IMG/VR virus record: IMGVR_UViG_3300042731_005485
Coordinates: 1-31,298 of that record
Reading direction: 5' to 3' (one strand)
Length of the DNA: 31,298 nt
From: a virus
The notes under the pieces were generated by a model. The model was not told where the DNA came from and made no database searches. It saw only the letters and a program-made list of their open reading frames with translations. The translations under genes were made by a program, and so were the position numbers. This document shows, piece after piece, positions 2,450 through 28,060 of the stretch (position 1 is the first letter of the stretch; every line of letters begins with the position of its first letter).

Positions 2450-5400
2450 TATTGATACCTCGAAGCATTGTAGAAGCTACCGCTTGGTCGTAGTGTATTT
2501 AACATCCTGTTATCCTGCATCTCGCGCTCTACCTCGTGGCGAGTGATGCGCCTACGTGAGTCATGAATATTTACATTTACATGTCCGTCACCGGTTATCC
2601 GGCTTAATTGGCGAGCAAGAGCACTGTGGTTGATCTCTTTTGAGAGATTAAGATTAACTTTATATCCTGGTTTCGATCCAGGATTATACCACTGACCCTT
2701 CTCCATTCTTGGCATAGGTAGTCTTTGAGGACTTGGTGCAGGACCACCAGCTACCTGGCCGCCTTCTACTGCTTCTGGTGTTAGATCTTTCGGGCTACCA
2801 GCCATTACCAGTCCAGCAAGCGCACCGGCACCAGCAAGTAGCATCATGGATCTTTTATTAGCACGCATGAAGCCACCAAGCTTTTCAAATGTTCTTACGG
2901 CCTGGCCTGCAAGTCCCTTGGATCCCTTGACACCAGCGTGAGTAGCGGCTATAGTGTCGCCTGATGCTAGCTGCATAAAGGTTTTGGCCCTAGCCATACC
3001 ACGACCTGCGAACTGTGCCTCGAGCTCTATCCTTCTTTCTGCACCCATATTCTTCCATGTGGATGTTAGACGCTCGAGAATGTCATCAAAGTAAGCTTCC
3101 TCGCCTGGCTTTAGATTAAGGATATCTCTTGTCTTCTCTTGTAATACTTTGTGGCGCCCTGATTGAAATGCCTGTGCTAATTCTTCTGCTTGACCTGCAA
3201 CGATACTCATATCGTGACGAGCTTTTAGAGTTGTCTTCTCCTCCATAATTTCAGCCCAGAAGAATGCGTCAAACTTCTCTGCCGTACTCAGACCAGCCTC
3301 TTCTGCAGCCGCTGCCATGGGCCATGCTAGGCGACTTGTGAATATACCAACTTCTGATTTAGACGCTGCGTCCCTAGCAGCTCTTTCCTTCAAAAATTGA
3401 GTGTTCCATCTATCCTGGAACCACGCCTTTACGGTTCCCCTACCACCAGCCTTGATATCTCTACCAAGTACCTGCTCTCTGATATACGTATGTTTCTGTA
3501 TCTGTCGTGTGATTTCTCCGGATTCTAGGGCCTTGGTCGCTTGATCTAATGCCTCTCTACTAGTAAACATATCAACAGGCATGGGGTCAAGGTCAAGGTC
3601 GGCCATAAATGGCTTAAGAAGACTTTCACTTAGATATAGAAAGTTCCTTTCTGCTTCCCATCCAAGCTCAGCAGCAGGTCTAGCAGGTCCAAGATAGAAA
3701 AGGTTGGTGGACAAAGGTCCACGAGCAGGATGCTTGATAGCCTTAACTGGTAGCCTACCCTGGTAAAAGAGGCGCCTTTGTTCTTTGGCCATTGATTGAT
3801 CTATCATTCCGGAACGCAGATTTTGTGCGACCCAGTCCTCAAATGTTCGCCTCGAGATAGCACCGAATGGAGCTTTCTCCCCATGGGCTATCATTACATC
3901 GTCTGCAATTTCTCTACCGATAGCAAATGTAAGCGATCCCTCTACACGGCCGCCCATCTTATCTCTATATCTGGTTGCCATGGTAGCTAGATTGTTGTAA
4001 TACTCCTCTAGCGGACCTGCGGCAGCCAGCTCTGCTGGCAGTACACCCATTGCGCCAATGTCTGCTTGTGCTTTTATAAGGACATCTCTTAATGATTCAT
4101 CCAGACTTTTCATTATTTCTCTACCCTCTGCGGTAGTGAAATAACCCGTATAGCCAGTACCCATGTGGGGGATTGATATTTGAGAAACTTCCTTACCAGC
4201 TATCTTGTATGTCTGAGGTAGTTGTATGATACCACCTTCCTCGGCTATAAACTGCGCTCGAGCACCAGCGTCTGCGAGCAAGGCCTCTACTCCGCCTGGC
4301 CTACGCGCTATGTCTGCGAGAGGAACACCTCTACCTTCGCCTCTAGTAGCTGCTACGGCTTGCTCTAAAAGTCCCTGAAGAGGTATATCCCTTTCTACAC
4401 GCTTGGCCATGTCTGTTGCAATATCGTCCCAGCCGAACATTTTAAAGACCCTAAAGGCATCATCGGTAAATGTACCGGGCTTACCAATACCGAGCATCTC
4501 CAGTGCTGGACCTGGACGCAACTGTTCTTCTCTAACAGCTAGGGCGTATGGAGAAAACTCTCTGAACCAGCTTATACCACGCTTTCTGGCCTCTCTAATA
4601 AGCATTCTCCTGCGTCCCATTAGGTCTTCTGTATCGAAGTATCCCTCAGGAAGAGCACCAATTGTTGCTAGCCACTTTTCTTCTATCATTTGATTGAAAC
4701 GGCCAACATTCTTCCCTGTACCCTTCCACTTCTCCCATGGCATCCAGCCCTTTCCTTCTACAACAAGACCCTGAGCACCACCGTACATCTGAGATGCCCT
4801 TCTTTCTGCTCTCTTTAGTTGTATTGCAGCGGCTGGATCACGGATATCCATCTTCTCTACATCTATGCCTTGTGCTTTTAGTAGCTCTAGCGCTTTGGCT
4901 CTGACACCAAGTCGCCTTACAGCATCAGGATCAGCATATTCGAGAGAGTGCTTTATACCACCTACAGAAAATACCTTTTGTGGGTCATAGTAGCCGCCAA
5001 GAGTAATTTCAGTTGTGTTACCTACGGTTGTTATATCTCTGATCATTGTATGCATACCGTAAGTCTTAGCGAATCTAGGACCGCTCATTGTGGACCCAAG
5101 GAATTCTCCCTCAGTTACTGTACGAAGGAGATTCATCTCTCGTCTTTGAGCTTTGCCAAGTCCAGAATAGGTGGCCATAGCCTCTTCTAGAGTATGTCCT
5201 CCGTCCAGCATACTCCGTGTGATATCATTATCATATAGAAGCTGTTGTATCTTCTCTATTTTCTTTGATGCTGCAAGAGTTGGGTCTATACGAATGGGCC
5301 TTACGACTCCAGTACGCATACGAGTCCTCATGCCCTCGCCCATCATGATTACATCTTGTCGTGGTGTGATGGCTGTCATGCCTAGCTGTCGACCTGCCAT

Positions 5401-6615
5401 CTCTACAGAAGCTGGTGCCACTTGGAATAATTTAGCTGGAGCAGCACCACCACCTGCGACACCAGGCTTGGTGAGTGCCTGCGTCCAGTGCTGTGGTGTA
5501 GCTCCACCATGCGGTAGAGCTGCGGCGCCGGCCTCTGTCCATACCATACCTTTGGAAAGAGCATCTGGCGTCAGACCAGCAGCCCTACCCATACCAGCAA
5601 GTCTTTCTAATGCAAGTTCTCGTTGGGCTGCAGTAGCTCCGGCACGTGGCACATACATTTGTCGTGCATATACCTGTCCTGCACCTCTTCCCGGGAGCAC
5701 ACCACGCTCATCACCTGTATAGATAAGTTGTTTTCTTATCTCTCTTTGCAGGGCGGTTATATCTTTCTTTGAGATAGCACCCTGTTTTTCAACGACAAGC
5801 TGACGTAGTCTCTGTAGTGAATACTCAGCAACATCAGCCTCTCTTGCTACACCCGTACTTAGGAACTCAGGAACATCAGCTAGCACACGACGCGCATAAT
5901 AGCGAGTACCAAATTGAGTAGCTATTGCACCCTCTGCGCTTGGAAGTGGAATTGTCATACTAACAGGACCACCAGCTCTATGTAGCGTTACAACCATTTC
6001 GCTGAGAGTCCTATCGCCAGCCTTCCTCATTTGGAAGGTGGGGATCGTATCCATCATGTCTCGTGTAACTGCCGATAGATCATCCAGATGCATACGTAAG
6101 TTTGCACGCTGAGTACTAGACAGTCCCAGATCATTTCTAGCAAGAGCTTCCGAGATAGCGCGAACGTTTGTTGTGGCCCTTGCCCTTTCTGTGGTGAGCG
6201 GGATATTTCTTCCTAGACCTACTGGGGCACCTATCGAGCTAGGATCAATTCCTCTAAATTCTCTTATAGATTGTCTTAGGATAGGTTTTAAAGCAGGAAA
6301 CTCTTCTGTTATATCTACTGCTCCCTGTAGTGTCGTAATGGCGCCCAGTGGAGTGCTAACTCCTACCCTACGTCTGAAAGACTTTAGGATTGGATCGTAC
6401 AGTGCGGGATCTATTTCACCAAGATTCGGTTGCCATGTAGCCATATTGGCATACCAGTCTGCGGTTCGCCCACCTACCACCTTATTAATAGGATCTTGTG
6501 CAGACTGGAAAGCGGAGCCAAGCGCACCTCTCCTGTTCCAAGCAAAAACACCAACTGGTGCACTTGCTAACAGAAAAGGAAGTATCGATCTATTGCCTTC
6601 AAATTCTTCTGGCAT
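2449..6615 (-). CDS. Giant tail protein in tape-measure position, 2 (1388 aa)
   Basis: Starts by TAATG overlap with the previous gene. It has an N-terminal hydrophobic stretch (SILPFLLASAPVGVFAWNRR), many glycine/alanine-rich segments, a helical region with RAERRASQMYGGAQGL, and near residue 1252-1272 a membrane-like segment (SMMLLAGAGALAGLVMAGSP) followed by a proline/glycine-rich linker. The end contains SRITGDGHVNVNIHDSRRRI, related to the ending of the preceding giant protein. The pair of giants may together replace a single long tape measure, or one may be ejected with DNA. No catalytic motif is seen. Function is by position. Confidence 0.55.
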   Translation of the reverse strand: MPEEFEGNRSILPFLLASAPVGVFAWNRRGALGSAFQSAQDPINKVVGGRTADWYANMATWQPNLGEIDPALYDPILKSFRRRVGVSTPLGAITTLQGAVDITEEFPALKPILRQSIREFRGIDPSSIGAPVGLGRNIPLTTERARATTNVRAISEALARNDLGLSSTQRANLRMHLDDLSAVTRDMMDTIPTFQMRKAGDRTLSEMVVTLHRAGGPVSMTIPLPSAEGAIATQFGTRYYARRVLADVPEFLSTGVAREADVAEYSLQRLRQLVVEKQGAISKKDITALQREIRKQLIYTGDERGVLPGRGAGQVYARQMYVPRAGATAAQRELALERLAGMGRAAGLTPDALSKGMVWTEAGAAALPHGGATPQHWTQALTKPGVAGGGAAPAKLFQVAPASVEMAGRQLGMTAITPRQDVIMMGEGMRTRMRTGVVRPIRIDPTLAASKKIEKIQQLLYDNDITRSMLDGGHTLEEAMATYSGLGKAQRREMNLLRTVTEGEFLGSTMSGPRFAKTYGMHTMIRDITTVGNTTEITLGGYYDPQKVFSVGGIKHSLEYADPDAVRRLGVRAKALELLKAQGIDVEKMDIRDPAAAIQLKRAERRASQMYGGAQGLVVEGKGWMPWEKWKGTGKNVGRFNQMIEEKWLATIGALPEGYFDTEDLMGRRRMLIREARKRGISWFREFSPYALAVREEQLRPGPALEMLGIGKPGTFTDDAFRVFKMFGWDDIATDMAKRVERDIPLQGLLEQAVAATRGEGRGVPLADIARRPGGVEALLADAGARAQFIAEEGGIIQLPQTYKIAGKEVSQISIPHMGTGYTGYFTTAEGREIMKSLDESLRDVLIKAQADIGAMGVLPAELAAAGPLEEYYNNLATMATRYRDKMGGRVEGSLTFAIGREIADDVMIAHGEKAPFGAISRRTFEDWVAQNLRSGMIDQSMAKEQRRLFYQGRLPVKAIKHPARGPLSTNLFYLGPARPAAELGWEAERNFLYLSESLLKPFMADLDLDPMPVDMFTSREALDQATKALESGEITRQIQKHTYIREQVLGRDIKAGGRGTVKAWFQDRWNTQFLKERAARDAASKSEVGIFTSRLAWPMAAAAEEAGLSTAEKFDAFFWAEIMEEKTTLKARHDMSIVAGQAEELAQAFQSGRHKVLQEKTRDILNLKPGEEAYFDDILERLTSTWKNMGAERRIELEAQFAGRGMARAKTFMQLASGDTIAATHAGVKGSKGLAGQAVRTFEKLGGFMRANKRSMMLLAGAGALAGLVMAGSPKDLTPEAVEGGQVAGGPAPSPQRLPMPRMEKGQWYNPGSKPGYKVNLNLSKEINHSALARQLSRITGDGHVNVNIHDSRRRITRHEVEREMQDNRMLNTLRPSGSFYNASRYQ

Positions 6616-9600
6616 TACTTAAATCTCGCTTGCCTAATGGCTGCTTGAAATCTATCTCGTTGGTTATCATTAACAGTCAAATCTACTCTACCACCGTTAA
6701 GCGTGGGAATAATCGAGAGACTATCGGGACCATATGTGTTCAATAGTTCTCTTATCCTTGCTTGTACGTTCTCTGGGGTTTCCACCTCATTAATATCTAA
6801 TTGGTCTGTTACTTCATCAAGGTATGGTTTTCTTGTCATGGCATAAAGCCTGTCTTCCCACAAATCGAAGTCGTGAAAATCATAGCCTTCTTGCCTGACA
6901 AACTTCATTTTCACATCTTCCATATCGACTCTAGGATCCCATCCTATCCAGCTCTCGTCTGGAAGCTTGTGCGATTGGAAGTATTCTGTGATTTCCTTTT
7001 GCCTATACCAATCGGCATATTTATGTGGTCTAGCATGCCCCTTTCTAACCGCTTCTGAGAACTCAGCACCTAGCTCCTCTGAAAAGGGCTGTCCTTGACG
7101 GAATCTATCTTCCTTAATATAGCGAAGTACCTTATCTGCCTCTTCGGCATCTTTCTCGTAGTCAAATCCTTTCTTACTGACACGCTTTACATCTTTCTCT
7201 GCTTGCTGTAGATAGGCGGCTCTATAGACTTCTCTAAGTTCTTCGGGAACTAACTCGAGAATACGTTCTTGTTTCTCTGGATCTGTTTCTTCTCTGAAAG
7301 CCTTCCAGTAATCACGCTCTCTCTTCGGCATTGCCCTAAGAACATATAGAGGATTACCATATGGGTTCATGCCCACCATAGTTTCCTTGGCCTTCTCTCT
7401 ATACCTTTGAGCTGACTCTGTATCTTCAGCTTCTATGGCAGCCTTCTCTAATCTCAGATTCTTGATGTATTCTAATTTGTCAAAATAGGCCTCTATATCG
7501 CGCTGTCGTCGTATATGTGGTGGTACCCCCTCATAGCCCATGATGTTAGCAAATCGCCAGATACCGGGCCTAATAAAGTTATCGTAGACCCTATTCCAAA
7601 AGGACATGTCAGTTCCATAGATCTGTGACTGCTCATAGTCTTCGAGAGCCGTGCGCCTATGGACGAATTTACCCATAGGAGCGATCGGTGGAAACATGAC
7701 TTGCTCTACTGGGGTCTCGAATCTTGATACTACATCCCAGTAATCAGCCATCGTGCGACCAATGATACCAGCGTTGGCTTCTTCTAGTTCCTGTTCTGTC
7801 ATGTATTCTGCGAACTGCTTTCTAGTTTTTATTGCACGAACTTGTTTGCGAAGCTGTTTTACTTGACCCTGTTCCTCTTGTGACAGAGAACCGGCCTTAG
7901 CAAGCGCAGACATCCTTTTATTATATGCTTTATATTCTTGTGAGTACGGTGCTACGTCAGCAAGAATCTTAAACCTATAGAACTCTGGATAATCTTCTGG
8001 ATCGAGTCCTTCTAGTTCAGGATGCAGTGCTTCATACCCTGGACCAGGTAGTCTCATTTCACCGCGTGGAACTTTACCGTATGGATCACCTGTTTGGAAA
8101 TTAATGAAGTATTGCTCACCAGGTAACCATTCTGGCATTTTGTTACGAATTGGGCTATAATACTGGCCCCTATCTCTGCGTGGATTAAGACGACGATATG
8201 CCTCAGTTACACCAAATGGATCACCAAGAGACGCATCCCAGTAGGCACGCTTTACACTTGCTATCCTATCAGCGCTTTCTAGTTCAGGACGCACATCATA
8301 CTCGGTTGTCTCGCCGGCAGCAGAGCGTGCGATCAGTCTACCAATCCAACCTACGATACCGATAGCATCAGAGTAATAATCTAAGGTGTCTTTACCTAGT
8401 TGTTCATAAGAATATGGATCTCTAGGTTGATACGGGGCTTCACCACCTAAGCCTGGGTGAGGAGCTAATTTCGGACGTGGTTCCCATGGCACAGGCTCTT
8501 GACCAGACCGCCACTCTTCAGTGTGCATGTAGCGTACTGGTTTAAAGATCCTTCCTATAGTTGCTTTATAGATAGGATCCAGTACGCCTATACCTAGATC
8601 GCTTGGTCCAGTTACAGGATATGGCCTATCTTCATAATGTAGCTTTTCAAAATAGTAAGGATCAATTATATCCTGTAGAAGAGGTGTTTTCTTTACTGCC
8701 TTGAATAGCCAGCTTTCCTCTCCAGAAAACAGAGCCTCATCCATATATCTGGTTTGAGCTCTTACTGTCCAGTGTGGGGCATAGTATGCCGGCTTCTTAC
8801 CAGCGAATGGTGTACGGCCGAATATCCACCATCTACTGGACATAACTGGTACATCTTTGCGGCCAGAATATACCTCTTCCAGTTCTTCTGGTGTCTCGAG
8901 ACCACCAAGTAATCTTGCTACCGCACCCGGCACCATCGGTAGGGCTAGTGCTGCACCTATCGCAAGACCAATCCTACCGAAGCGGCCAGTTCTACTATAG
9001 GCACCCTTGAATATCTTACCAAAAATGCCACCCATTCTCATAGGGGCTCTAGCTGCTTCGAGAACTCGTGTTGGTTCGCCAGTGACAGACCCGATAGCAC
9101 GATGCATGTAGCCAGCAAATGCACCAGTAAGACCACCAGCCATTGGTAAAGCCAGCACGCTTAATGGTGAAGTTGACCCTGGAGCAATGTCCTCTTGCCA
9201 TCTGGCTATTGGGCCAAATACCCTACCAAGAGTATGGGCCCTGGCCTTCATTAGACCGGTATATGTTCTTGCGAACATACCAGGCATGCCGCCTTCGGCA
9301 ACGGTGCCCTTGCCATACCTAGCCATCAATTGATCTATAGTATGATAGGCAAATGGAATACCTATCAAGGCCATTAATGCACCTGGCCTAAAGAACCTTT
9401 GACCTACCTTTGAAATCATAGGTCCTTCATGCATTATTTCTGGAAGTAGCCACCGTCCGAACATACGGGCGGTACCACCTTCGTATACACCACCTAAACC
9501 AAAACGACCTCTAAATCTAGCTTTATCCCATGCCCTATGTCCGACATGCATTACCTTTTCGAACATAGTTGAAGGTGCAGCAGGATCACCACTAAACAAC

Positions 9601-12489: not shown

Positions 12490-13260
12490 CTACTTTTCCT
12501 CCGGGTCTGGCCCTTCTTGTGCTGCCAGAAGACGTCTTACCCTTACGTCTTGGACCATTTTCTCAAAGTCTAATTCTCCTTGGGTAATATCTTCCCAAGT
12601 AACTGGCCCATCACCTCTCATATCATACATGGGTTCTATATGCCTTGCTACAAACTGACATACATTCTCAGTAATGAGGTCATCAACGCTCATTGTTTGA
12701 CCTTCATTGACTAGCTCAACACCATAGAGAACTAATCTCGATATAGCTCCATATTCATTGACAAGGCTGATTGTTATATCGAATGGAGGTATTTGATCTA
12801 CCATTACGGCAGACCATACGCCATAGTTGTCTCTGTCTGCTGAATCCGTCTGATACATTGGAACCAACATCTCACTTAGTATCTCCTTATTGAAGACAGT
12901 GAATATAAGACTCCCACCAATTGTACGTGGGCCTCTGGTATATCCCTTTGGAGATGTACGTCCAAGTGTACGTACAGGAAACTTCTCTCTATGAGTGGAA
13001 AACGTGATTGTTTGAACATCGCCTAATATCTTAGTTCTACTTTTATTTTCTTCTTCTGCATTCGAGTCATAGAAATGCACTATGGCCCGGATATCACAGC
13101 CAGAGTATGAGGTATACTGAACTACCTCTTCTGCTGCTACTGATACTTTATCGGGATCAGCTGGAGGAACTTGGTAGTTATCCTTAAGCCACTGCTCCTG
13201 TTCAGCAACTTTTTCAGCTATTTGCCTTTTACCATGTTCGTATACATTTTCGGATGGCAT
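12490..13260 (-). CDS. Tail tube-fold protein, copy 2 (256 aa)
   Basis: Clearly related to copy 1: TSYSGCDIRAIVHFYDS, ILGDVQTITFSTHREKFPVR, RGPRTIGGSLIFTVFNKE, MVDQIPPFDITISLVNEYGA and LYGVELVNEGQTMSVDDLIT align one to one with that gene. It has an additional charged N-terminus (about 1-45, EKVAEQEQWLKDNYQVPP), an insertion in the first loop and an acidic C-terminal tail. The AGAGGT site is about 8 bases before the ATG. It may form a second tube layer, a tube initiator at the baseplate, or a head-side tube cap, as T4 gp48/gp54 are tube-like accessory proteins; this is inference. Confidence 0.65.
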   Translation of the reverse strand: MPSENVYEHGKRQIAEKVAEQEQWLKDNYQVPPADPDKVSVAAEEVVQYTSYSGCDIRAIVHFYDSNAEEENKSRTKILGDVQTITFSTHREKFPVRTLGRTSPKGYTRGPRTIGGSLIFTVFNKEILSEMLVPMYQTDSADRDNYGVWSAVMVDQIPPFDITISLVNEYGAISRLVLYGVELVNEGQTMSVDDLITENVCQFVARHIEPMYDMRGDGPVTWEDITQGELDFEKMVQDVRVRRLLAAQEGPDPEEK

Positions 13261-13351: not shown

Positions 13352-13999
13352 TTACGTTTGATCAGTCAGCATATTGCCAGCTGGACGCCATGGAATGACT
13401 GCCCGGGCAACATAGGTCATGTTCTGTTCGGTCACGATATCGTCAATCGATACACCAGAACCCTCGTTGAGGATCTCTACTCCGAGGATTCTCATGACTG
13501 CTAGCTGACCATACTCGTTCGCGGCCGTCAGAGTAACATCGAAGGGCGGAATCTGGTCGACATACATGGCCTGACGAGGCTCGTGTTGATCACTCAACCT
13601 TGAACTCTCAGCCTGCAATCCTGTTGGTGTATTAGGATTAGACAGGTCTTCCACATTCAATGACTGATATGTAGAAGTTGAGAAGAAAGCTAGGTCTCTG
13701 TTGATCCGAGGCTCATCTTTGTCAGCCAAGTACTTCCGAGATTCTGTACCCATTGTCTCTAACAGTGCAGCACGGTCGAATACGATGAAGATCAGAGAAC
13801 CGGCGATACCACGTTTGCCTCTATTAAAGGCACGTGGATCCGGGGAACCCATCGTATATATAGGAGCCTTCTCACGGGTAATCATATAGGAAATAGCCTG
13901 AAGCTCACCTATGATCTTCTCACCGAAAACGGCCCTAATATCGACTCCACTGAATGAGTGGTAAGTTCCGGACGTTTGGCTTATGGTACGTTCTGCCAT
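13352..13999 (-). CDS. Tail tube protein, copy 1 (215 aa)
   Basis: The gene follows the sheath, where the tube gene lies in contractile phages. The tube-like pattern is GTYHSFSGVDIRAVFGEKII, GELQAISYMITREKAPIYTM, then FNRGKRGIAGSLIFIVFDRA and, after a variable loop (about 95-140), YVDQIPPFDVTLTAANEYGQ, MRILGVEILNEGSGVSIDDI. The SG-x-DI start, ITREKAPIY, arginine/glycine-rich GSLIF strand and DQIPPFD strand are shared with the next gene. The tube is a stack of hexameric beta-barrel rings inside the sheath. Because it is directly after the sheath, has the strongest ribosome site (AAGGAGGAG) and is followed by a terminator, this copy is the best candidate for the main tube. Confidence 0.7.
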   Translation of the reverse strand: MAERTISQTSGTYHSFSGVDIRAVFGEKIIGELQAISYMITREKAPIYTMGSPDPRAFNRGKRGIAGSLIFIVFDRAALLETMGTESRKYLADKDEPRINRDLAFFSTSTYQSLNVEDLSNPNTPTGLQAESSRLSDQHEPRQAMYVDQIPPFDVTLTAANEYGQLAVMRILGVEILNEGSGVSIDDIVTEQNMTYVARAVIPWRPAGNMLTDQT

Positions 14000-14013: not shown

Positions 14014-16233
14014 TTAGATTGCACTCAGGCTTACAGTGATGAAGATCTGTCTCAATTCGAAAGCTGGAACCAAGAGCAGATCAAGGTTTGCCTTTCCTTG
14101 TACCCGTTCTACAGCAGAAGCTGAGATACTGGCTTCAGCCCGCTGGAGGAAACCTTCTTTAATCAGGTCTGTGAGTACGCGGTCTGTAGTAGTTTGCATA
14201 GCATTCAACTGCGGAGTTGTGATTCCTTCACCCAGGAATGGATTAAGAACGTCACGCAACCTGTCAATCGTTTCTGCCACGATCCTGACTGTAGTCAGTC
14301 TTGTGTAGTCAGATGTTGAGGTAGCAGCAGTTGGAGCGTCAACCACTATTGTACCACGCTCACGCGGTGTGAAGACAACATAGTGTACACCTACCAGATC
14401 GTTCATTCTGCTCTTGCTCAGACGGAACGCAGAAGCAATTCCCGGGATCACCTTGTTTGTAGGTGCGGAATGTGCAGCTAGCTGCGCCACGAAGCCCGCA
14501 TATGTAGGCGCGCCTGTAGCAATGTAGCCGAAGCCTGTGGCATCGACAGGAGTGAACAGAATTGGCCATGCCATAACAACTGAGATATACCGACCGATGT
14601 CGACATTCGGGCTCAGTGGGGTTCCATCAGCAACTTCGTCTGATGTAGCATTAAAGCCAGGGCCTCTCTGAGTAGTTGTTGTAGCGCTGATGTACCAGTA
14701 AGTACATATAACAGTTTCGGTACCAACTAAGGTATCTTCGAAGATGATCTCATCGAGACCACCTGTACCTGTACCATGACTAATGGTGAACTTTCGTTCT
14801 TCTGCATCATCAATTGTGCAGTAGACTGAGCCGGCCAGGACATATTCGTCACCAGTACCATGACCCATATCAAAAGTAGTACCACCACTAGATACATCGA
14901 TAGTATCACTGGTTTCCTCAGTGTAGGTATTTACTGTCATCAGCATACCGGCCATCCACCTGTTTCCTGCAAGGCCTGTACCGTTAGCTGTAACGGCATC
15001 GTTGGCATCATAGGTAGGTAATGTACCAGCCCAATTAGCGAGATCCTTCAGAGCAGTACTCCGGAAAGGACGCACACCGATTGTACCAATGCAGTTGTTG
15101 TCATTCTTGGAAAGGTTGTAGCAGAAATTTGCGAGTTGCCACGCAAAGTTTGCTTCATTATATTCGTAGGTTTCACCTGCACCTACGTCATACTTGTACT
15201 TCTCGTGATACCATTCAAACATGGTCTCACCGCTCTCTTCCCACGTACGGTAGTAGAGCAAGCCGTCAGTTGTCAGGTAGTTGTAGCTGATATCGACTGT
15301 ATCTGTGGCAGTCAGAGCTGACGCAAATTCAATCTGATCAACATCACCTGAACCTGCCCCTGCATTGAACCAGAAGTCCGTACCCAGTTCCCATCGGACA
15401 GGGCTTCCGCCTCCGAGGGAATCATAGAGTACATACAGGGAATTTGGGTTAACTCTTGAGTTCTCGAGATCTATTGTGGTCTCGCCACCAGTAGCAACAG
15501 TTTGAGTATCTGAATAGTCGACTGCAATACTGGAGTCGTCAGCTATATTCGCAGTGTCCATGTAGACGTCCATTGGAACCATGAAATCAAGCTGAGAAGC
15601 TTCTAAGCTAGCATAAGCTATATGAAGAGCTTCAAACAACTCCATGGCTGTTGCATTAACACCATCGGAACCAGCTACAAAGCGAGTTCCTGTTATGGTA
15701 ACTGAGCTCATTAAGATCGGCACGCTTTCTGTACCAATGTCTGTACCAACTGATTCAGCAGTACCACTGGTAAAAACATAACCTAGATCTGTTTGGATCT
15801 CGTCTTTTATCATCTCGTACAGGACTGTGTCATCCTCGTCCGTCACAACGAGACGTTCCTCAGAGTGATCCCAGAAGATATACAGGTCTGTTCCGGCTGA
15901 AGCATCTTTGTCGAACGTTTCGATAGTAATACCGGCAGAACCGGCATCGTCACCGACATGCAGCAGTTTGGCTGATTTGGCCGCAATACGCATAAGAACA
16001 ACGTTTTGAGCTCCGCCAAAACGTACCTCATACATGCCGCGGATCAGCGTTCCACTTGCGCCAAATGTATTGGCTGCGTCAGCAGGTCGAGTGACAGGAT
16101 AGATCACGTCCGCGGTGCCTTCTGCGGCGGTGCCAAGTACTGCGACTACAGGATCGGTACTAGCTTCAACAATTTGAAGATTCCCGTCTGTCAGTTCAGT
16201 GTAAGTACCCGGAAGATTCGGAAAATCTGCCAT
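14014..16233 (-). CDS. Contractile tail sheath protein, enlarged
   Basis: At 739 residues it is longer than most sheath proteins. Residues about 1-90 match the sheath N-terminal domain (PGTYTELTDGNLQIVEAST, VVAVLGTAAEGTADVIYPVT, FGGAQNVVLMRIAAKSA) and residues about 590-739 match the C-terminal domain (SRMNDLVGVHYVVFTPRERG, VRIVAETIDRLRDVLNPFLG, TTTDRVLTDLIKEGFLQ). The middle carries two beta-module insertions at about 240-322 and 438-518, which account for much of the extra length. The sheath polymerises round the tube and contracts to drive it through the cell envelope. Its presence defines the phage as a contractile-tail type. It has an AAGGGAGAT site and is followed by the tube genes. Confidence 0.85.
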   Translation of the reverse strand: MADFPNLPGTYTELTDGNLQIVEASTDPVVAVLGTAAEGTADVIYPVTRPADAANTFGASGTLIRGMYEVRFGGAQNVVLMRIAAKSAKLLHVGDDAGSAGITIETFDKDASAGTDLYIFWDHSEERLVVTDEDDTVLYEMIKDEIQTDLGYVFTSGTAESVGTDIGTESVPILMSSVTITGTRFVAGSDGVNATAMELFEALHIAYASLEASQLDFMVPMDVYMDTANIADDSSIAVDYSDTQTVATGGETTIDLENSRVNPNSLYVLYDSLGGGSPVRWELGTDFWFNAGAGSGDVDQIEFASALTATDTVDISYNYLTTDGLLYYRTWEESGETMFEWYHEKYKYDVGAGETYEYNEANFAWQLANFCYNLSKNDNNCIGTIGVRPFRSTALKDLANWAGTLPTYDANDAVTANGTGLAGNRWMAGMLMTVNTYTEETSDTIDVSSGGTTFDMGHGTGDEYVLAGSVYCTIDDAEERKFTISHGTGTGGLDEIIFEDTLVGTETVICTYWYISATTTTQRGPGFNATSDEVADGTPLSPNVDIGRYISVVMAWPILFTPVDATGFGYIATGAPTYAGFVAQLAAHSAPTNKVIPGIASAFRLSKSRMNDLVGVHYVVFTPRERGTIVVDAPTAATSTSDYTRLTTVRIVAETIDRLRDVLNPFLGEGITTPQLNAMQTTTDRVLTDLIKEGFLQRAEASISASAVERVQGKANLDLLLVPAFELRQIFITVSLSAI
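14680..14922 (-). other. Sheath beta-module insertion 2 (coding)
   Basis: Encodes sheath residues about 438-518 (DVSSGGTTFDMGHGTGDEYV, RKFTISHGTGTGGLDEIIFE, ETVICTYWYIS). It shares the opening, turn and closing-strand order of insertion 1 but is diverged, so it is probably an old duplication or separate acquisition. Confidence 0.5.
15268..15516 (-). other. Sheath beta-module insertion 1 (coding)
   Basis: Encodes sheath residues about 240-322: TTIDLENSRVNPNSLYVLYD, then WELGTDFWFNAG, and DTVDISYNYLT. The strand/GTDF-turn/closing-strand pattern matches the separate 112-residue protein at 18578-18916 and insertion 2. Confidence 0.55.
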
Positions 16234-16976: not shown

Positions 16977-18359
16977 TTAGTCCCAACTTCTGCTAGTACG
17001 ATAAACGATCTGTCGGTTCTTTTCGTAGTAGAGTCGTGGGTCCCTGAGAGCCTTCACCCCACGTCGACCAATCACTTTTTGCACTACGGTGTTAGCAGCT
17101 GGTGCAGCATTTGGTCGCTGAGTCCAGCCTCTTCCGACTTGTGGTCTGTCAGGGTCGTAAAGGCCTTTGATAGTAACAACTGGTCGGACACCTGTACCGC
17201 CAGTTTGGAGTACTTCCTCCCATTTTTCGATGCAATCCTTGAATTTATCGTAGAGTGCTTCTTTCTCTCTAGGAGAGACTCCTGAGTAGCTAACTTCCAT
17301 GTCAGCCAATCTTTTACTCTTGCCTTGACTGTCAAGCTGATTGGCGAAGACTAGATCGTATGCTACTTTGCAGATGACCCATCGCTTTTTCGCTAATGCG
17401 ACCAAGGCAGCGTTTCCTACTGTACTAGGTACTAGCAGATCTGCCTCAATAGAATATTCATAGATAAGCATGGCAATTGCTATATCTGTAACATTCTCAG
17501 CATATGGGCCAAGGAGTACCTTAACCTGTGCTACAGTAGCGTAAGCAGGATTAATTTCTGTAGCAAAGGTTAGTACATACTCTTGTAGGACAGATTCATC
17601 AGTGGCAGTGATATCCTTTAATGAAACTATCACTACAGAGTTTTGCTCAAAGTTGGCATCGGGAGTAAGTACCAGCGTGTCACCGTTAACAGTACCAACA
17701 TGACTAAAGTCATAATCGGGAGTTACAATTGAGTCATCCCCATTGATTGGTCCTACGGTGATATTTGACTGATACGTACTAATGTCTTTATTGAGCGTTA
17801 TCGTAATAGCTCCAGGTACAGGACCGGAAGCTAGATCGATCGGCACCTGCGCAGAATACTGCGCAGGGTATGTTGACACAACCGACAAGCTTTCCAGTGC
17901 GTCTGGATAGTCTGTCAGTGGTGGTGCAATTTGTGGGTCCGAAACTTCATCCGGAACCTCATCTACGATTCCAGTTTGGAACGACCAACCGTAGATTATA
18001 TCGATTGACTCGGAGCCGTCCGAGTTCTCTATCCCGTCGTCTAGGATAACATCGTAATCAGCTTGCTCTAGGAGTGGTAGTGACGGCGTAAACACTGCCG
18101 TCTGGTCACCGTTGGTATAGGTAACAGTACCCTCTACCACTTCATTGGAGGAAACTGTTTCGTTGTTTAGGGTTTTATAGGCTCTTAGAGCCACCACCAT
18201 TGTGAAGGTGCTAGTATTGATCGGTTGATTGAAATCACACTCAATGGTGACTCCTTGAGCAATACCTGTAGAACCGTCATCGGGTCTCACGTCCACTATA
18301 GCGAAAGGTACAGTCGTAGTGGTCGTGGTAGTTGTTGTGCTAGTGGTGGTCGAGCTCAT
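16977..18359 (-). CDS. Neck/head-tail adaptor with N-terminal Ig-like domains (460 aa)
   Basis: The protein starts with MSSTTTSTTT and a longer threonine run (to about 16). Then come two Ig-like (Big_5-type) domains: about 17-130 (VRPDDGSTGIAQGVTIECDF) and about 157-270 (STYPAQYSAQVPIDLASGPV, TITLNKDIST). The C-terminal part, about 270-460, is helical and looks like a head-tail connector/adaptor (TVAQVKVLLGPYAENVTDIA, ALAKKRWVICKVAYDLVFA), ending in a basic tail. The order threonine linker, Ig, Ig, adaptor is unusual: Ig domains are frequent on virion surfaces and could bind cell envelopes. It has a GAGGA site 7 bases before the ATG and lies directly before neck and sheath genes. Confidence 0.65.
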   Translation of the reverse strand: MSSTTTSTTTTTTTTTVPFAIVDVRPDDGSTGIAQGVTIECDFNQPINTSTFTMVVALRAYKTLNNETVSSNEVVEGTVTYTNGDQTAVFTPSLPLLEQADYDVILDDGIENSDGSESIDIIYGWSFQTGIVDEVPDEVSDPQIAPPLTDYPDALESLSVVSTYPAQYSAQVPIDLASGPVPGAITITLNKDISTYQSNITVGPINGDDSIVTPDYDFSHVGTVNGDTLVLTPDANFEQNSVVIVSLKDITATDESVLQEYVLTFATEINPAYATVAQVKVLLGPYAENVTDIAIAMLIYEYSIEADLLVPSTVGNAALVALAKKRWVICKVAYDLVFANQLDSQGKSKRLADMEVSYSGVSPREKEALYDKFKDCIEKWEEVLQTGGTGVRPVVTIKGLYDPDRPQVGRGWTQRPNAAPAANTVVQKVIGRRGVKALRDPRLYYEKNRQIVYRTSRSWD

Positions 18360-18373
18360 CCCGAATCCTCAGA

Positions 18374-18565
18374 CTACGGAGTTGTAGTCGTTGTGGTTGT
18401 TGAAGTAGTTAGGTAAACTGCATCCCAACTTTCAAACAGCACCTGATTGCCTACCCTGGCATAGATGCCAGAAGTTGTCAGTCTGACCTCCCCATCTTTC
18501 ATGTCGGAGACATCGGCAGGTGTGGTGCCGTCCAACTTAACCTGTCTTGGTCTCAGTCTAGGCAT
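18374..18565 (-). CDS. Small protein with threonine-rich C-terminus (63 aa)
   Basis: A short beta-like protein with GEVRLTTSGIYARVGNQVLF at about 26-45, reminiscent of small fibre or neck modules that bear GEVRL and IYARVG strands, followed by the tail TTSTTTTTTTP. It has an AAGGAG site 8 bases before its ATG and is separated by 14 bases from the next gene, whose N-terminus is again a threonine run. No function is recognised. Confidence 0.5.
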   Translation of the reverse strand: MPRLRPRQVKLDGTTPADVSDMKDGEVRLTTSGIYARVGNQVLFESWDAVYLTTSTTTTTTTP

Positions 18566-18935: not shown

Positions 18936-19433
18936 TTACGCTAGCTGTATTTCAATCTGCTCTTCGTCTGACTCGGTCACAGCTGTAGCGCCTCCAACCT
19001 TATTCAGCTTCTGCTCGAGGGCTGTAAGAACTGTTGTGCGGGCTTTACCTTCCTTTTCGAGCTCAATAGCTCTACTCAGGAATTCGGCATCGAAGGTACC
19101 AGCGCGTAATTGATCTCTTACTCCGCGAACACCTTGGTCTAGTAAGTCTTCTGCACTAACCTTCTGAGCCTCGACCCTACTGTCCTCTTGACCCTTCTTG
19201 CCCTTTTCCTTAGGTTCGACTTTAGGCTCGGCTTTAGCATTAGGATCCTTGACCTTCATAATGTTGCCATGTTGTAGGCCAGCATTCAGGATCTGTAGGC
19301 TATACTTGCTAAGCTTTGTCTCATCGACTTCCACAGGACCAGGTTTCTGGAAGGTCAGATGCACTATTAGCTTCCTGCTCACAGGATCGACCAGTGACCA
19401 AAAAGCAGCTCTTGGTGTCAGTTTGATGAACAT
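18936..19433 (-). CDS. Hypothetical protein (165 aa)
   Basis: Unrecognised. The N-terminal 55 residues look beta-rich (FIKLTPRAAFWSLVDPVSRK, LIVHLTFQKPG) and may form a small barrel. A lysine/glutamate-rich linker runs from about 60 to 90 (PKVEPKEKGKKGQEDSR), and the second half is helical (SAEDLLDQGVRGVRDQLRAG, AIELEKEGKARTTVLTALEQ). The end is acidic. It has a strong AAGGAG site and follows the S21 gene by 12 bases. A two-domain layout with a linker fits a head-completion or small structural protein, but no family is seen. Confidence 0.55.
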   Translation of the reverse strand: MFIKLTPRAAFWSLVDPVSRKLIVHLTFQKPGPVEVDETKLSKYSLQILNAGLQHGNIMKVKDPNAKAEPKVEPKEKGKKGQEDSRVEAQKVSAEDLLDQGVRGVRDQLRAGTFDAEFLSRAIELEKEGKARTTVLTALEQKLNKVGGATAVTESDEEQIEIQLA

Positions 19434-19445
19434 GATGCTCCTTTC

Positions 19446-19721
19446 TTACCATCTTCGAGCTTTGAGACGTTTTCGGAGCTTCTCTTGAAGCTCTTCTTCT
19501 CTCTCTAGCTCTCTGCGACGAATCGCTTGCCGTTTCTTGTTGTGCCTTTTTTGAGATGGTTTCATAAAGGCACGGCGTTCAAGCACATGCTTGATTGTTC
19601 CTTCTTTCTCCACAAGCTTTCTGAACTTCTTAACCGCGGCTTCGAAGGATTTGAATTCTCCAACATTCACACTAAGAGGTTTGAACTTTTCCAGGTAGCC
19701 GTTATCCAAATCCAAAGACAT
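19446..19721 (-). CDS. rpsU: Bacterial ribosomal protein bS21 homologue
   Basis: Residues about 21-70 match the small-subunit protein S21: SFEAAVKKFRKLVEKEGTIK, then ERRAFMKPSQKRHNKK and AIRRR, in the same order as in bacterial S21 (the F-x-x-A-x-x-x-F basic helix, EK-x-G, RR-x-F/Y-x-KP and a basic tail). At 91 residues it is longer than the roughly 70-residue bacterial form because of an N-terminal extension of about 20 residues and a longer charged C-terminal helix. S21 binds near the 16S 3' end and affects initiation and Shine-Dalgarno recognition. Phage copies of S21 are known. Here it lies between capsid and tail genes with a GAGGTG site, so it is likely made late, at high dose. Confidence 0.85.
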   Translation of the reverse strand: MSLDLDNGYLEKFKPLSVNVGEFKSFEAAVKKFRKLVEKEGTIKHVLERRAFMKPSQKRHNKKRQAIRRRELEREEELQEKLRKRLKARRW

Positions 19722-19735
19722 TAAACACCTCGATT

Positions 19736-19987
19736 CTATGCTGATGTAGTCGTAGTAGTCGTGGTTGATGTTGTAGTCGTGGTTGATGTTGTAGTCGCGT
19801 TAAAGATAGCTTGTGCCTCAGGGAGCATTACCGTGATCATATGGCGTTTAGACCAATCATCACTTGGTGTAGCTCCTAGAGCCTCTAAGCGAGCCATAAA
19901 CCGCGCTTTACTCCAGTCAGTCTCACCAGTGAGACCGTCCATCGCTGAAAGCTGGTCGTGGAGATACTTCTTACTTCTATCTGCCAT
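19736..19987 (-). CDS. Small protein with poly-threonine C-terminal tail (83 aa)
   Basis: Residues 1-63 form a charged, helical, tryptophan-containing domain. DWSKARFMARLEALGATPS at about 24-42 and DWSKRHMITVMLPEAQ at about 44-59 repeat the DWSK opening, suggesting two short similar helices. The last 20 residues are nearly all threonine with serines at intervals, made of a TTTSTT hexamer coded by an 18-base DNA repeat. It has a GGGAGAT site before the ATG. The neighbours are structural genes. The tail could be a flexible or glycosylated linker; no function is recognised. Confidence 0.55.
   Translation of the reverse strand: MADRSKKYLHDQLSAMDGLTGETDWSKARFMARLEALGATPSDDWSKRHMITVMLPEAQAIFNATTTSTTTTTSTTTTTTTSA
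19755..19797 (+). repeat. 18-bp tandem direct repeat, 2.4 copies
   Basis: The unit gtagtcgtggttgatgtt occurs at 19755-19772 and 19773-19790, followed by a 7-base partial copy. It encodes the TTTSTT units of the overlying minus-strand gene. It is an in-frame coding repeat, not a CRISPR array. Confidence 0.85.
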
Positions 19988-20003: not shown

Positions 20004-20351
20004 TTATAGGCCAGCTGCTGCTGGGCCTAGTGTTAAAAGGGCCTTAACAAAAGCGGCTATGACGTCGATACCTATTACTGGAGCGAGAACACCTCCGAGT
20101 AAGGCCGCACCAATACATCCTACAAGGATATACTTATGCAGCGTCTTGAACTTCTTATCGTGGCAAGCTTTACAGGCTTCGCAGTCTTCAGCGTGCTCTT
20201 TCCAATCTTCTTTGCGAGAGTCATTAATCTCATCTATAGATGTCCTGACTCCATCGATGCATCCAGCTAGCTTATCGAACTTCGAGTCCAAGTATTTCTG
20301 GTGCTCGCCCACAAACGTCTCGAATGTATCCTTACTCAATGGCTCTGCCAT
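20004..20351 (-). CDS. Small coiled-coil protein with C-terminal membrane segments (115 aa)
   Basis: The first 70 residues are charged and helical (FVGEHQKYLDSKFDKLAGCI) and carry a cysteine cluster, CEACKACHD at about 57-65. From about residue 74 to the end the protein is hydrophobic (YILVGCIGAALLGGVLAPVI, then a second segment VIAAFVKALLTLGPAAAGL), giving one or two membrane helices. This layout resembles XhlA-type holin accessory proteins or other small phage membrane proteins, but a capsid-flanking location is not typical for lysis genes. The ribosome site is weak. Function is unknown. Confidence 0.55.
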   Translation of the reverse strand: MAEPLSKDTFETFVGEHQKYLDSKFDKLAGCIDGVRTSIDEINDSRKEDWKEHAEDCEACKACHDKKFKTLHKYILVGCIGAALLGGVLAPVIGIDVIAAFVKALLTLGPAAAGL

Positions 20352-20420: not shown

Positions 20421-21626
20421 TTAGCTGATCGGAGTAGTCGGGTCGATTTCGCCTACACTACCACTGATGTCAATAGTAGTTGAGGCGGGCAGTACCACGT
20501 GGTTCGGACGTACGTAGACGTTCTTAAGGGTACCGATTGCCTGGCCTTCGTTCAGGATCGCTACGGCATACCTTTCCCGAATCTTGATCTTGCGGATGTC
20601 GCGTGCAGGATCATCAAACTCTTCTGTCATGGGCTCTTCGTCCACGATCAGGGCACCGAGGTTGGCGCTATCGAAGATCATGATGTCCGTAAGCTTTGTG
20701 ACCGGGTTGTAAGGCACAAAGGGGCTCACGATAATCCGGAAGGGGATTGGGAAGTAGGATGGCAGCACAGGAGCAGAATTGATATTCTGGCTATATGCGG
20801 TCAGCGGATCTGAGTCTGGATCGATGTTCTGACCCGGGCTGTATCCGAGACCACCCTGAGCTGAGTTATCCCATGGTGCGCGACCGGCTGGATTTCCCTT
20901 CCACGAAGCGAAGAAGGTTCCACCACCGGCAGCAAGAGCGAAAGCACGCAGGATGGGATCCTTAACCCACATGATCCATGTTAATGGATGCATTAAGAGG
21001 GTGTCAGGCATCCAGCCTTGTGCAATAATCTGTCCGAACGCGTCGAAAATGTCGTCCATAACAACGGAACCGTTGGCAGAGCCGTCGAGTCCGCGGCCAT
21101 GGGTCACGCCGAACAGCGAGTTGGCGGGGGTCACATTATCAAAGCAAACTACACCCATTGAATTGATGTAGTTGAAGATCTTTTGCTCTTTGTGACGAGC
21201 AAGAGCGCGACCTGCAGCACGTAAGTGCATGCCGATGACGTCGTACTGTGAGTACTTGATCATCTCGTCAGTAACCTTCACGGCCACACCGGACTTTCCG
21301 ATGGTCGCCGTAACGGTTGCTCCACCCATTTGGAGCTGACGCTCTGGATATTCCTGACCTTCAGCGATATCCGCGGCAACGAGGGCACCGACAGCCGGGA
21401 ACGTAATCGTCTGACCGGCATGATACTCAATCCTTTGCAGGAGAGAAGTACCCACTAACAGAGGTTCGGCAGCCTCTTTGACTATATTGGATACCACCTT
21501 GGGGAGGAACATAGCGGCGTTGGGAACACTGATGGCGTCTTTCATTTCCACCCTTTGGTCGCCCTCAACCGGCATACCATTGTTCCGCCAGACGAATTCG
21601 TAGGTGGTTAGATCGTTGAATTCCAT
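20421..21626 (-). CDS. Major capsid protein, HK97 fold
   Basis: At 401 residues it has the usual length. The N-terminal segment leads to SVPNAAMFLPKVVSNIVKEA and LLQRIEYHAGQTITFPA, then GQEYPERQLQMGGATVTATI and KVTDEMIKYSQYDVIGMHLR, typical of the HK97-type N-arm, E-loop and spine helix. The central region has MPDTLLMHPLTWIMWVKDP, a common P-domain segment, and the C-terminal part has the usual RERYAVAILNEGQAIGTLKN. It assembles the icosahedral shell on the scaffold and is probably cleaved or matured by the upstream protease. A strong GAGGAGG site lies 9 bases before the ATG, and a hairpin follows the stop, consistent with very high expression. Confidence 0.88.
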   Translation of the reverse strand: MEFNDLTTYEFVWRNNGMPVEGDQRVEMKDAISVPNAAMFLPKVVSNIVKEAAEPLLVGTSLLQRIEYHAGQTITFPAVGALVAADIAEGQEYPERQLQMGGATVTATIGKSGVAVKVTDEMIKYSQYDVIGMHLRAAGRALARHKEQKIFNYINSMGVVCFDNVTPANSLFGVTHGRGLDGSANGSVVMDDIFDAFGQIIAQGWMPDTLLMHPLTWIMWVKDPILRAFALAAGGGTFFASWKGNPAGRAPWDNSAQGGLGYSPGQNIDPDSDPLTAYSQNINSAPVLPSYFPIPFRIIVSPFVPYNPVTKLTDIMIFDSANLGALIVDEEPMTEEFDDPARDIRKIKIRERYAVAILNEGQAIGTLKNVYVRPNHVVLPASTTIDISGSVGEIDPTTPIS

Positions 21627-25480: not shown

Positions 25481-28060
25481 TCATACAACCACTGTCATTG
25501 GCGGCGGATCAGTGGCGTGCATTTTACATAGTTCTTGTGCCAAGCCATTGATCTCCTTCGCAGATAACTTAGGGTATTTCTTACGTAAATCCTTCTTTGC
25601 AGCATCCAAACACTTAGAATTCATCTTTTTCCCAGCACTTGCATCTTTTTTAGTGCCTGGTTCTAACGCTGCACGACAAATCCTGATCGCACTTGTTTTA
25701 ATGCGTTCACTAGACCACGTAGGATGACGCTTTCTAAGGTCTGGCTTAACAGACATAACACAGCGCTCCTCTTTAGCTGTGAGATCTTCCTCTTCACCAT
25801 CCATAAAGTCCAACATTTGTTTTTGTGTTGGCTCTGGATAGAGTGATAGTTTACACCCACAGTTGTCATGCCATGGTGGTAGATCTGATGCAGTGAGATG
25901 TTCTAAGTTAAAACGCTTACCGTGGAACTCGTCGCAGGTAACACATTCCACGTCTTCCTCTTCCGGACTACGGAAAGTGTATGCGTAGTCGTAGCCCATT
26001 AACAGATAGCCAATAGCTTGACCATACACTCGTGCTTGACGCTTAACAGTTCTGTCAAGGAAGTCAGCTCTGAACGCAAAGCTGTCAAGAGCTGAGCGGA
26101 TATACGTCTTGTCACGTCCTTCGAGTGCAAGGGTTTCTATTGTGTCAAGTACTCTGTCAGTGAGCCAGCTAATCCTGCGGGAAGCATATTCCTGTAGTTC
26201 CTTAATGCGTACTCGAGCAATGGGGTGAGTGGCATGCCTACTGGCTTCCACATCACGCAGGCCGCGATAAAAGTAACCCCTGGTATGCTCGAGATACTTT
26301 TGGGTGATGATCTCATCAACAAAACGGCCCATAGTTTTGCGCCAGCCGTGGTCATGTAGATCAATCGTGTCCAAAAGGTCACGGAAAAGTAACAGGAACA
26401 CAGCATCTTTGAATGCATCAAAGAGCTTCATGAATTTACTTGGGGATTCACTGGACTTTCTTTTAGTCGGTCCAGGATTGGTGCCATGTTGGTTGGTAGG
26501 TTGAGTTTTGTTGCCAGCAGACTTACCTCCTCGTGATTTACCCTTCGAAGGAGCTTTAGTCTTTTCTGCAACCTTCTTACTTCCAGCAACTGCGGGACTG
26601 CTAGGCGAACTCGGGTTAGTCTTGGTCTTCATAGCTGCCTTTGAAGCAGCAGTATAAGGCTCATCAATAGCCTGGATGATTAGACGCGGTTTCTCAATTC
26701 TTTCCCAATACATTTCCGCTTCTTCATCCGCTTCAATAGGCTCCTCTCCAACCTCCTTTCTCGCTTTAGTTAAGCCAATGACATGACCCTGATAGAGATT
26801 CACAGCATTAGCATCCCGCTTAATCTTGGCTTCAAGATCTATCTCATTGAACTGGAGATGAACTGAGTTATCATCGTCCAGTACATCAACATTGAAGGTA
26901 CTCTCTAAGAGTAGTTCTCCTATAACAAAGAAATCGACGAAGAGTTCCATTACTTGCTGGAAGTCTTTTACACAGTCGATTAGGGCCTGAGAGAGAGCAT
27001 CGGCCGTATTCCTATTGGCGGATGAGCCCTCGCCATAATCAATGGCACTCATTGAAAGTCCGGCCCAAACACGCTTCTTGAAGTGCTCTAGGAATGGATC
27101 TGCCCTAAGGGCTTTGCCCTGTGCACCTAGAGCTTTGATCTCATGACGTTCAGGTGTAACGATACTACCTTCAGCAGGCATATCTTCTACCTGAGCACGG
27201 ATAAGATCAACCTCAGTGGCACCGTCTTCGTACACTCTAGCTGGTGCGTTTTCTGTACCTACTATATAATGGTAAAGTGGGAATAGGTGTTGGTAGACAA
27301 GAAGCTCGACGTCTTCTTCCATTCTACGTAGAACACGGACGTCGTCTAGAACGGGAACAGAGTCAGGTGTGCCAACAGCAAAGCCACCTTTGCGATCATG
27401 GTAGATGTGGATAACATCGGCCGGATCCCATTCTGGCCACTTGCCGGTCTTAGGAGACACCAGCGGTCTGAGTATCTTCTGTTGGTATTTGATTACGTGA
27501 CCTTGCATGTCACGCTTGAAGTACATAGTCTCCGGTGGTACTCGAAAATATCCAGCCACGGGTTGTAAGGTTTTTCCTGGTATTTTTCTTACAGCTCCAC
27601 CGGAGGCCTTTTTGTCACGAACCTTTATAATAAAGGCATTAGAGAACTTGATCAGGTCAGAAGAGATTTCCCTAAGTAGTAACTTAAAGGGGAAATTGGT
27701 TGCTCGCTCTATTTGAGCAATACGCCTCTTTATGTACCTGATTGTATTCTTATTTTTTCCTACCCATCGATAGCCTTCTTTCATCAGAAGCCCAGTCTTC
27801 TTTTTGAAAGCTCTGGCGAGATAGGAATCGGTATCAGCAGCCCTGCTGATCTCGGCTAGGTCATATTCGCCTGGTTGGAATGCGTCACGGCTCCAATAGT
27901 TCCTGTATCCAAGTACTGGACTTTTAACGTTAGGTGGAACTTTCTTGACACGAACCATTCTGCTCACATCCCGTGTAGCCGGGAAGCGCATTGGATTGCC
28001 ATATGCATCATATATAATGATAGGGCTAGGTACTCTTACTGGGAGATTTGTTTTATCCAT
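25481..28060 (-). CDS. Portal protein fused to Mu gpF-like minor head domain
   Basis: The 859-residue protein combines two head functions. Residues about 40-465 resemble phage portal proteins, which form the dodecameric DNA entry ring (YWSRDAFQPGEYDLAEISRA, the VPPETMYFKRD and WDPADVIHIYHDRKGG strands, ALSQALIDCVKDFQQVMEL helix). A lysine/serine/proline/glycine linker spans about 470-545. Residues about 546-745 resemble the Mu gpF/SPP1 gp7 head morphogenesis family, ending in its typical cysteine/histidine motif: C706-x2-C709, HGKRF, then LPPWHDNCGC. A tail at 767-847 carries two 50-residue-period repeats. The start has a GAGGAAGGT site 7 bases upstream. The stop is TGA. Portal and F-like genes are usually separate neighbours, so a fusion is unusual but fits their partnership. 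Confidence 0.85.
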   Translation of the reverse strand: MDKTNLPVRVPSPIIIYDAYGNPMRFPATRDVSRMVRVKKVPPNVKSPVLGYRNYWSRDAFQPGEYDLAEISRAADTDSYLARAFKKKTGLLMKEGYRWVGKNKNTIRYIKRRIAQIERATNFPFKLLLREISSDLIKFSNAFIIKVRDKKASGGAVRKIPGKTLQPVAGYFRVPPETMYFKRDMQGHVIKYQQKILRPLVSPKTGKWPEWDPADVIHIYHDRKGGFAVGTPDSVPVLDDVRVLRRMEEDVELLVYQHLFPLYHYIVGTENAPARVYEDGATEVDLIRAQVEDMPAEGSIVTPERHEIKALGAQGKALRADPFLEHFKKRVWAGLSMSAIDYGEGSSANRNTADALSQALIDCVKDFQQVMELFVDFFVIGELLLESTFNVDVLDDDNSVHLQFNEIDLEAKIKRDANAVNLYQGHVIGLTKARKEVGEEPIEADEEAEMYWERIEKPRLIIQAIDEPYTAASKAAMKTKTNPSSPSSPAVAGSKKVAEKTKAPSKGKSRGGKSAGNKTQPTNQHGTNPGPTKRKSSESPSKFMKLFDAFKDAVFLLLFRDLLDTIDLHDHGWRKTMGRFVDEIITQKYLEHTRGYFYRGLRDVEASRHATHPIARVRIKELQEYASRRISWLTDRVLDTIETLALEGRDKTYIRSALDSFAFRADFLDRTVKRQARVYGQAIGYLLMGYDYAYTFRSPEEEDVECVTCDEFHGKRFNLEHLTASDLPPWHDNCGCKLSLYPEPTQKQMLDFMDGEEEDLTAKEERCVMSVKPDLRKRHPTWSSERIKTSAIRICRAALEPGTKKDASAGKKMNSKCLDAAKKDLRKKYPKLSAKEINGLAQELCKMHATDPPPMTVVV
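25520..25612 (-). repeat. Portal C-terminal repeat, copy 2
   Basis: Encodes residues 817-847, from C817 to just after C845, with LRKKYP and LSAKEI in register with LRKRHP and WSSERI of copy 1. The two copies are clearly related at protein level but diverged in DNA. Confidence 0.6.
25670..25762 (-). repeat. Portal C-terminal repeat, copy 1
   Basis: Encodes residues 767-797, from C767 to just after C795: a cysteine, LRKRHP, a serine, then an isoleucine-rich helix ending in a second cysteine. Copy 2 follows at a 50-residue period with identical 28-residue spacing between its cysteines. Confidence 0.6.

Follow-up and report, generated by a model that had tools for sequence, protein, structure and literature searches.

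A divergent, N-terminally extended bS21 homolog among the virion genes of a contractile-tailed phage known from metagenomes

The window, by which we mean the whole stretch of DNA analyzed (an IMG/VR virus record of 31,298 bases, itself a fragment), carries one copy of a gene for ribosomal protein bS21, at positions 19446 to 19721. Judged from its profile scores, conservation, and neighbors, the gene is a real, conserved, and divergent phage bS21 homolog situated in the late structural operon, and its product probably joins the platform of the 30S subunit late in infection. The gene represents a divergent and extended lineage of bS21 that is fixed in the late structural operon of a phage known only from metagenomes. 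Close relatives that are without the gene at the same junction, and have ribosome sites of the same strength, offer a natural comparison.

The bS21 gene and its neighbors

An earlier note on this DNA had assigned these coordinates to bS21 and called for a profile search. The coordinates are exact, and the 91-amino-acid (aa) protein scores above the curated cut-offs of both PF01165 (46.6 bits against 27; E value of 2.7e-12) and TIGR00030 (39.2 bits against 28.95). The PF01165 match covers residues 17 to 70 of the protein and positions 1 to 54 of the 55 in the model; thus, the similarity reported by the note for residues 21 to 70 stands, with the core beginning at residue 17. A second Pfam match, to MAJIN (20.9 bits, below the cut-off of 27), was dismissed as composition noise. 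In the alignment, the bS21 hallmark residues F33, K39, G41, R49, K54, and S56 are invariant in the phage set, and F/Y52 and P55 are nearly so.

The solved structures matched by the protein are all bS21 chains. An AlphaFold2 model (mean pLDDT of 77) contains helices at residues 26 to 40, 42 to 50, and 55 to 90 and leaves residues 1 to 6 unordered. With this predicted fold, Foldseek returned chain U of a 30S structure first and then mitochondrial-ribosome chains, all of them weak matches (E value of at least 0.26), and bS21 chains ranked best in a structure comparison in which Z was also weak (3.8 at most). From its chain name, we take chain U to be bS21; the tool does not state it.

All large genes of the window lie on the minus strand, a detail that the earlier note omitted for bS21. 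The features under discussion are as follows:

12490-13260 and 13352-13999, minus strand: two adjacent paralogous genes behind the sheath gene (phrog_9206)
14014-16233, minus strand: tail sheath (phrog_16991, 9.5e-71)
16977-18359, minus strand: neck-region candidate, 460 aa, containing a bacterial Ig-like domain (PF13205, 63.2 bits)
18936-19433, minus strand: 165-aa protein, downstream flank of the segment; its relatives lie directly 3' of the capsid gene where the segment is absent
19446-19721, minus strand: phage bS21 (N-terminal extension, residues 1-16; core, 17-70; C-terminal part of the long helix, 71-91)
19722-19735, minus strand: gap upstream of bS21 containing its ribosome site, GAGGTG (pairing with the 16S tail, -7.2 kcal/mol), which is kept in the clade
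19736-19987, minus strand: 83-aa protein containing a "DWSK" segment and ending in a Thr/Ser-repeat tail, segment member adjoining bS21
20004-20351, minus strand: 115-aa protein whose C-terminal half is hydrophobic and membrane-like (stretch read by eye), segment member
20421-21626, minus strand: major capsid protein (MCP), upstream flank of the segment (PF25209, 70.8 bits; phrog_3922, 1e-23)
25481-28060, minus strand: portal (phrog_9232)

The position between capsid and neck genes described in the earlier note is borne out by the capsid gene on one side and the neck-region candidate on the other, all on the same strand. The bS21 gene starts 14 nucleotides (nt) past the gene for the 83-aa protein and ends 12 nt before the gene for the 165-aa protein. 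The capsid gene is three genes away and the portal and sheath genes are six each, which falls within the 10 genes from a capsid, portal, protease, neck, or sheath gene expected of late-expressed phage bS21 in the sense of Chen et al. (2022). From the capsid gene to position 18300, the coding strand has no promoter-like or terminator-like site, and an internal promoter or terminator around bS21 was rejected on that ground. Together with the tight, co-directional gaps, this gene arrangement makes it likely that bS21 is cotranscribed with the virion genes.

The sheath gene indicates a contractile-tailed (myovirus-type) phage. PHROGs labels phrog_9206 as a major head protein; from this family and from their position behind the sheath gene, the two paralogs are probably two tail-tube-like proteins. 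Runs of Thr/Ser codons stand at the end or start of three neighboring genes of the structural region (19736-19987, 18374-18565, and 16977-18359; for example, TTTSTTTTTSTTTTTTTSA). Runs of the same kind occur in two proteins of an unrelated phage (L014), and they are expanded in records L010, L011, and L018.

The N-terminal extension, selection, and distribution

The distinctive part of the phage protein is a conserved N-terminal extension. The earlier note had remarked on an extension beyond the bacterial core, and it is real: about 14 residues, the first core Phe being residue 26, versus residue 12 in E. coli. The five nearest sequences all begin with the same six residues, M-S-L-D-L-D. The ATG start codon and a GAGGTG-type ribosome site upstream of it are both kept in relatives, ruling out a wrong start codon, and this conservation, together with a low pooled pN/pS (0.16 for residues 2 to 16, compared with 0.195 in the core and 0.27 in the C-terminal tail), indicates that the extension belongs to the protein and is constrained. 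The gene as a whole, extension included, is under purifying selection, with dN/dS values of 0.18, 0.09, and 0.06 against L003, L004, and L005, respectively (dS is near saturation for L005). Among close relatives, pS is lower in the core (0.40) than at the two ends (0.75 to 0.78), although the numbers are small; codon constraint or recombination is perhaps responsible.

The C-terminal helix, which the earlier note had also counted as additional to the bacterial core, is not a novelty. Past the KP motif, the phage protein continues for 36 residues and the 71-aa bS21 of E. coli for about 30, a slight excess of about 6 residues. Arg, Lys, and Glu are abundant in this part of the protein.

In a tree of 65 columns, a long branch (support of 99/99) splits phage bS21 from 16 bacterial bS21 sequences; the tree is short, its taxa were sampled by pattern searches, and the branching order within its phage part is not settled. 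The earlier note had considered a tree that would group the protein with unrelated basic phage proteins. The present tree speaks against such a grouping less directly than the profile scores do, and it points to no particular source or host. The phage core scores 46.6 bits, whereas the main bS21 genes in 23 bacterial genomes score 64 to 82, and this low score and the long branch suggest that the function of the phage protein may have drifted. The nearest bacterial matches are mostly from Bdellovibrionota, in a scan whose short peptide patterns (such as FE[AT]A[VL]KKF) favor sequences of the Bdellovibrionota type. The tree contains no specific bacterial sister, and we claim no host from bS21 ancestry. 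A search for the capsid genes of the window phage in 291 Bdellovibrionota and 296 Nitrospirota genomes found none, a result that says little for a lytic phage.

The neighbor comparison suggested in the earlier note shows a conserved slot: bS21 is present there in 7 of the 7 related records that cover it (L015, L003, L004, L005, L009, L010, and L011). L015 shows no difference from the window along its own length, and the other six have 58 to 88% identity in bS21 and 82 to 96% in the capsid protein. No bS21 was found where capsid identity is at most 66%; all these records are fragments, and the gene could be present in other parts of the genomes. The junction is spanned by 13 of these more distant records (L022 to L027, L030 to L032, L034, and L036 to L038, with L026 and L027 near copies), and there a relative of the 165-aa protein gene or the Ig-like gene comes after the capsid gene, at a distance of approximately 40 to 170 nt. 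The filled slot in 7 relatives and the direct passage from capsid to neck region in 13 others define, by gene order, a clade-specific segment of three genes (bS21 and the membrane-like and Thr/Ser-repeat genes preceding it) that either entered this clade or disappeared from the others. The 115-aa product had no Pfam match above the cut-off, and Pfam and PHROG searches with the 83-aa product were without a match. In L011, the DWSK/Thr-repeat gene beside bS21 is present as a tandem duplicate (5279-5938 and 5964-6671).

Related bS21 genes also occur in L013 (1186-1404) and L014 (1314-1520), which are different phages without the other genes of the window. Their proteins have 66% and 58% identity, respectively, to that of the window over the matched stretch, and both genes lie just upstream of large terminase and portal genes. 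A K-x-K-P-(L/I)-x-V motif before the core is common to these two proteins and the clade of the window. A search of 50,697 phage records for cultured relatives gave no match to this bS21, and capsid kin among cultured phages are distant (31 to 37% identity, in Bacillus, Moorella, and Acinetobacter phages).

Shine-Dalgarno sites and the role of phage bS21

We propose that this lytic phage would make its own bS21 from the late structural operon and that the protein would occupy the place of bS21 on the 30S platform, next to the 16S rRNA 3' end, replacing or topping up the loosely held host bS21 during virion-protein synthesis. Initiation would thereby be kept going and may be tuned through the phage-specific N-terminal extension.

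The earlier note had argued from the late location to altered 30S subunits that perhaps favor the strong Shine-Dalgarno (SD) messages of the phage. Late coexpression is likely by position, but the comparison with relatives lends no support to a preference for strong SDs. Under one SD rule applied to both groups, 70% of open reading frames (ORFs) in bS21 phages and 66% in relatives without bS21 in the region reach an SD strength of at least -6 kcal/mol, compared with approximately 10% and 9%, respectively, at random sites. SD strength is thus no different with or without bS21 in the region, indicating that strong SDs do not depend on the gene. The SD of the MCP gene is among the strongest (-12.1), and that of bS21 itself is moderate (-7.2). 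The comparison argues against phage bS21 existing to favor strong-SD messages, and it opens the published idea of late ribosome modification to testing.

The same result leaves no message selection visible in the sequences, which suits a plain top-up in which phage bS21 replenishes a loosely bound, limiting ribosomal protein and makes no choice between phage and host messages. bS21 is also reported to be one of the few exchangeable ribosomal proteins (PMC6375957). We nevertheless regard a plain top-up as rather unlikely: the conserved extension, with M1 to D6 invariant in the nearest relatives and a pN/pS of 0.16, suggests more than a host copy, as does the strong divergence from the sampled bacterial bS21.

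Action away from the ribosome, as a small basic nucleic-acid binder that serves head assembly or is packaged in the virion, is improbable. It would fit the location between capsid and neck-region genes, the Arg-, Lys-, and Glu-rich C-terminal part, and the suggestion by Chen et al. that phage bS21 may be packaged (PMC9723584), but the protein keeps the bS21 hallmark residues, related phages build heads without bS21 in the slot, and the related genes in L013 and L014, phages of another type, lie beside terminase without the segment.

At the position equivalent to Tyr54 of F. johnsoniae bS21, the alignment has Arg68 in the window, Arg in its clade, His in L013, Tyr in L014, and Lys in the Bdellovibrionota and Nitrospirota bS21 examined; the aromatic residue of the Bacteroidetes-type masking of the anti-SD is thus replaced by Arg in the window. 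In F. johnsoniae, bS21 controls access to the anti-SD, which Tyr54 masks (McNutt et al. 2023, PMC9976891), and the Y54A change raises translation of strong-SD messages. That a Bacteroidota-like host masks its anti-SD and Arg68 unmasks it, switching ribosomes to SD messages, would accord with that mutant, with the residues at this site in the phages, and with the strong SDs of the window genes, but it is very improbable, as there is no sign of a Bacteroidota host, the bacterial Lys makes Arg ordinary outside Bacteroidota, and relatives without bS21 in the region use SDs equally.

A bolder form of the proposed 30S binding, to which we give little credence, would make the membrane-like protein, the DWSK/Thr-repeat protein, and the extended bS21 one unit in which the extension gives the late 30S subunit a new choice of start sites. 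If the extension does change start-site choice, the result would be a virus-made specialized ribosome; the testable part is the conserved extension with the two accompanying genes.

Comparison with known phage bS21 proteins

Late expression of phage bS21 and its swap into 30S subunits are not new ideas. Chen et al. (2022) described bS21 genes in structural regions of Bacteroidetes lake phages, where they are transcribed along with core structural genes; they proposed preferential translation at the late stage and replacement of bS21 in 30S subunits, and they counted structural genes near bS21 in 388 of 900 published phages (PMC9723584). The pelagiphage HTVC008M protein is incorporated into 70S ribosomes of E. 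coli (Mizuno et al. 2019, PMC6375957). In this one tested case, GFP output in an E. coli system was only approximately 5% of the control when the ribosomes carried the viral bS21.

Like the window, the freshwater Bacteroidetes bS21 phages (clades a to e; PMC9723584) have bS21 near capsid, portal, and other structural genes, and phage bS21 forms a branch of its own in the tree. In those clades, however, bS21 is on the opposite strand, beside a conserved neighbor gene, and has an aromatic residue at the Tyr54 site, whereas the gene of the window is co-directional, encodes an N-terminal extension and Arg at that site, and has two small companion genes. HTVC008M resembles the window phage in being a myovirus with a bS21 homolog (AGE60443; PMC6375957), but its protein has 67 aa and its gene neighbors a cobalt-chelatase subunit, a heat-shock protein, and replication genes rather than capsid genes; chelatase, heat-shock, and replication genes lie near bS21 in the pelagiphages. 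The RpsU gene of Microcystis phage Mel-JY01 (PP395634) is co-directional, as in the window, and lies between prohead protease and capsid genes, but on the protease side of the capsid gene, and its 75-aa product is too divergent to be detected with the window protein. Pseudomonas phage PA5oct, a jumbo phage, also encodes a bS21 (QCG76137), of 68 aa, but it adjoins ClpX and heat-shock genes outside the structural module. Among these cultured phages, with Mel-JY01 bS21 among head genes and those of PA5oct and the pelagiphages elsewhere, placement in the structural module is recurrent but not universal.
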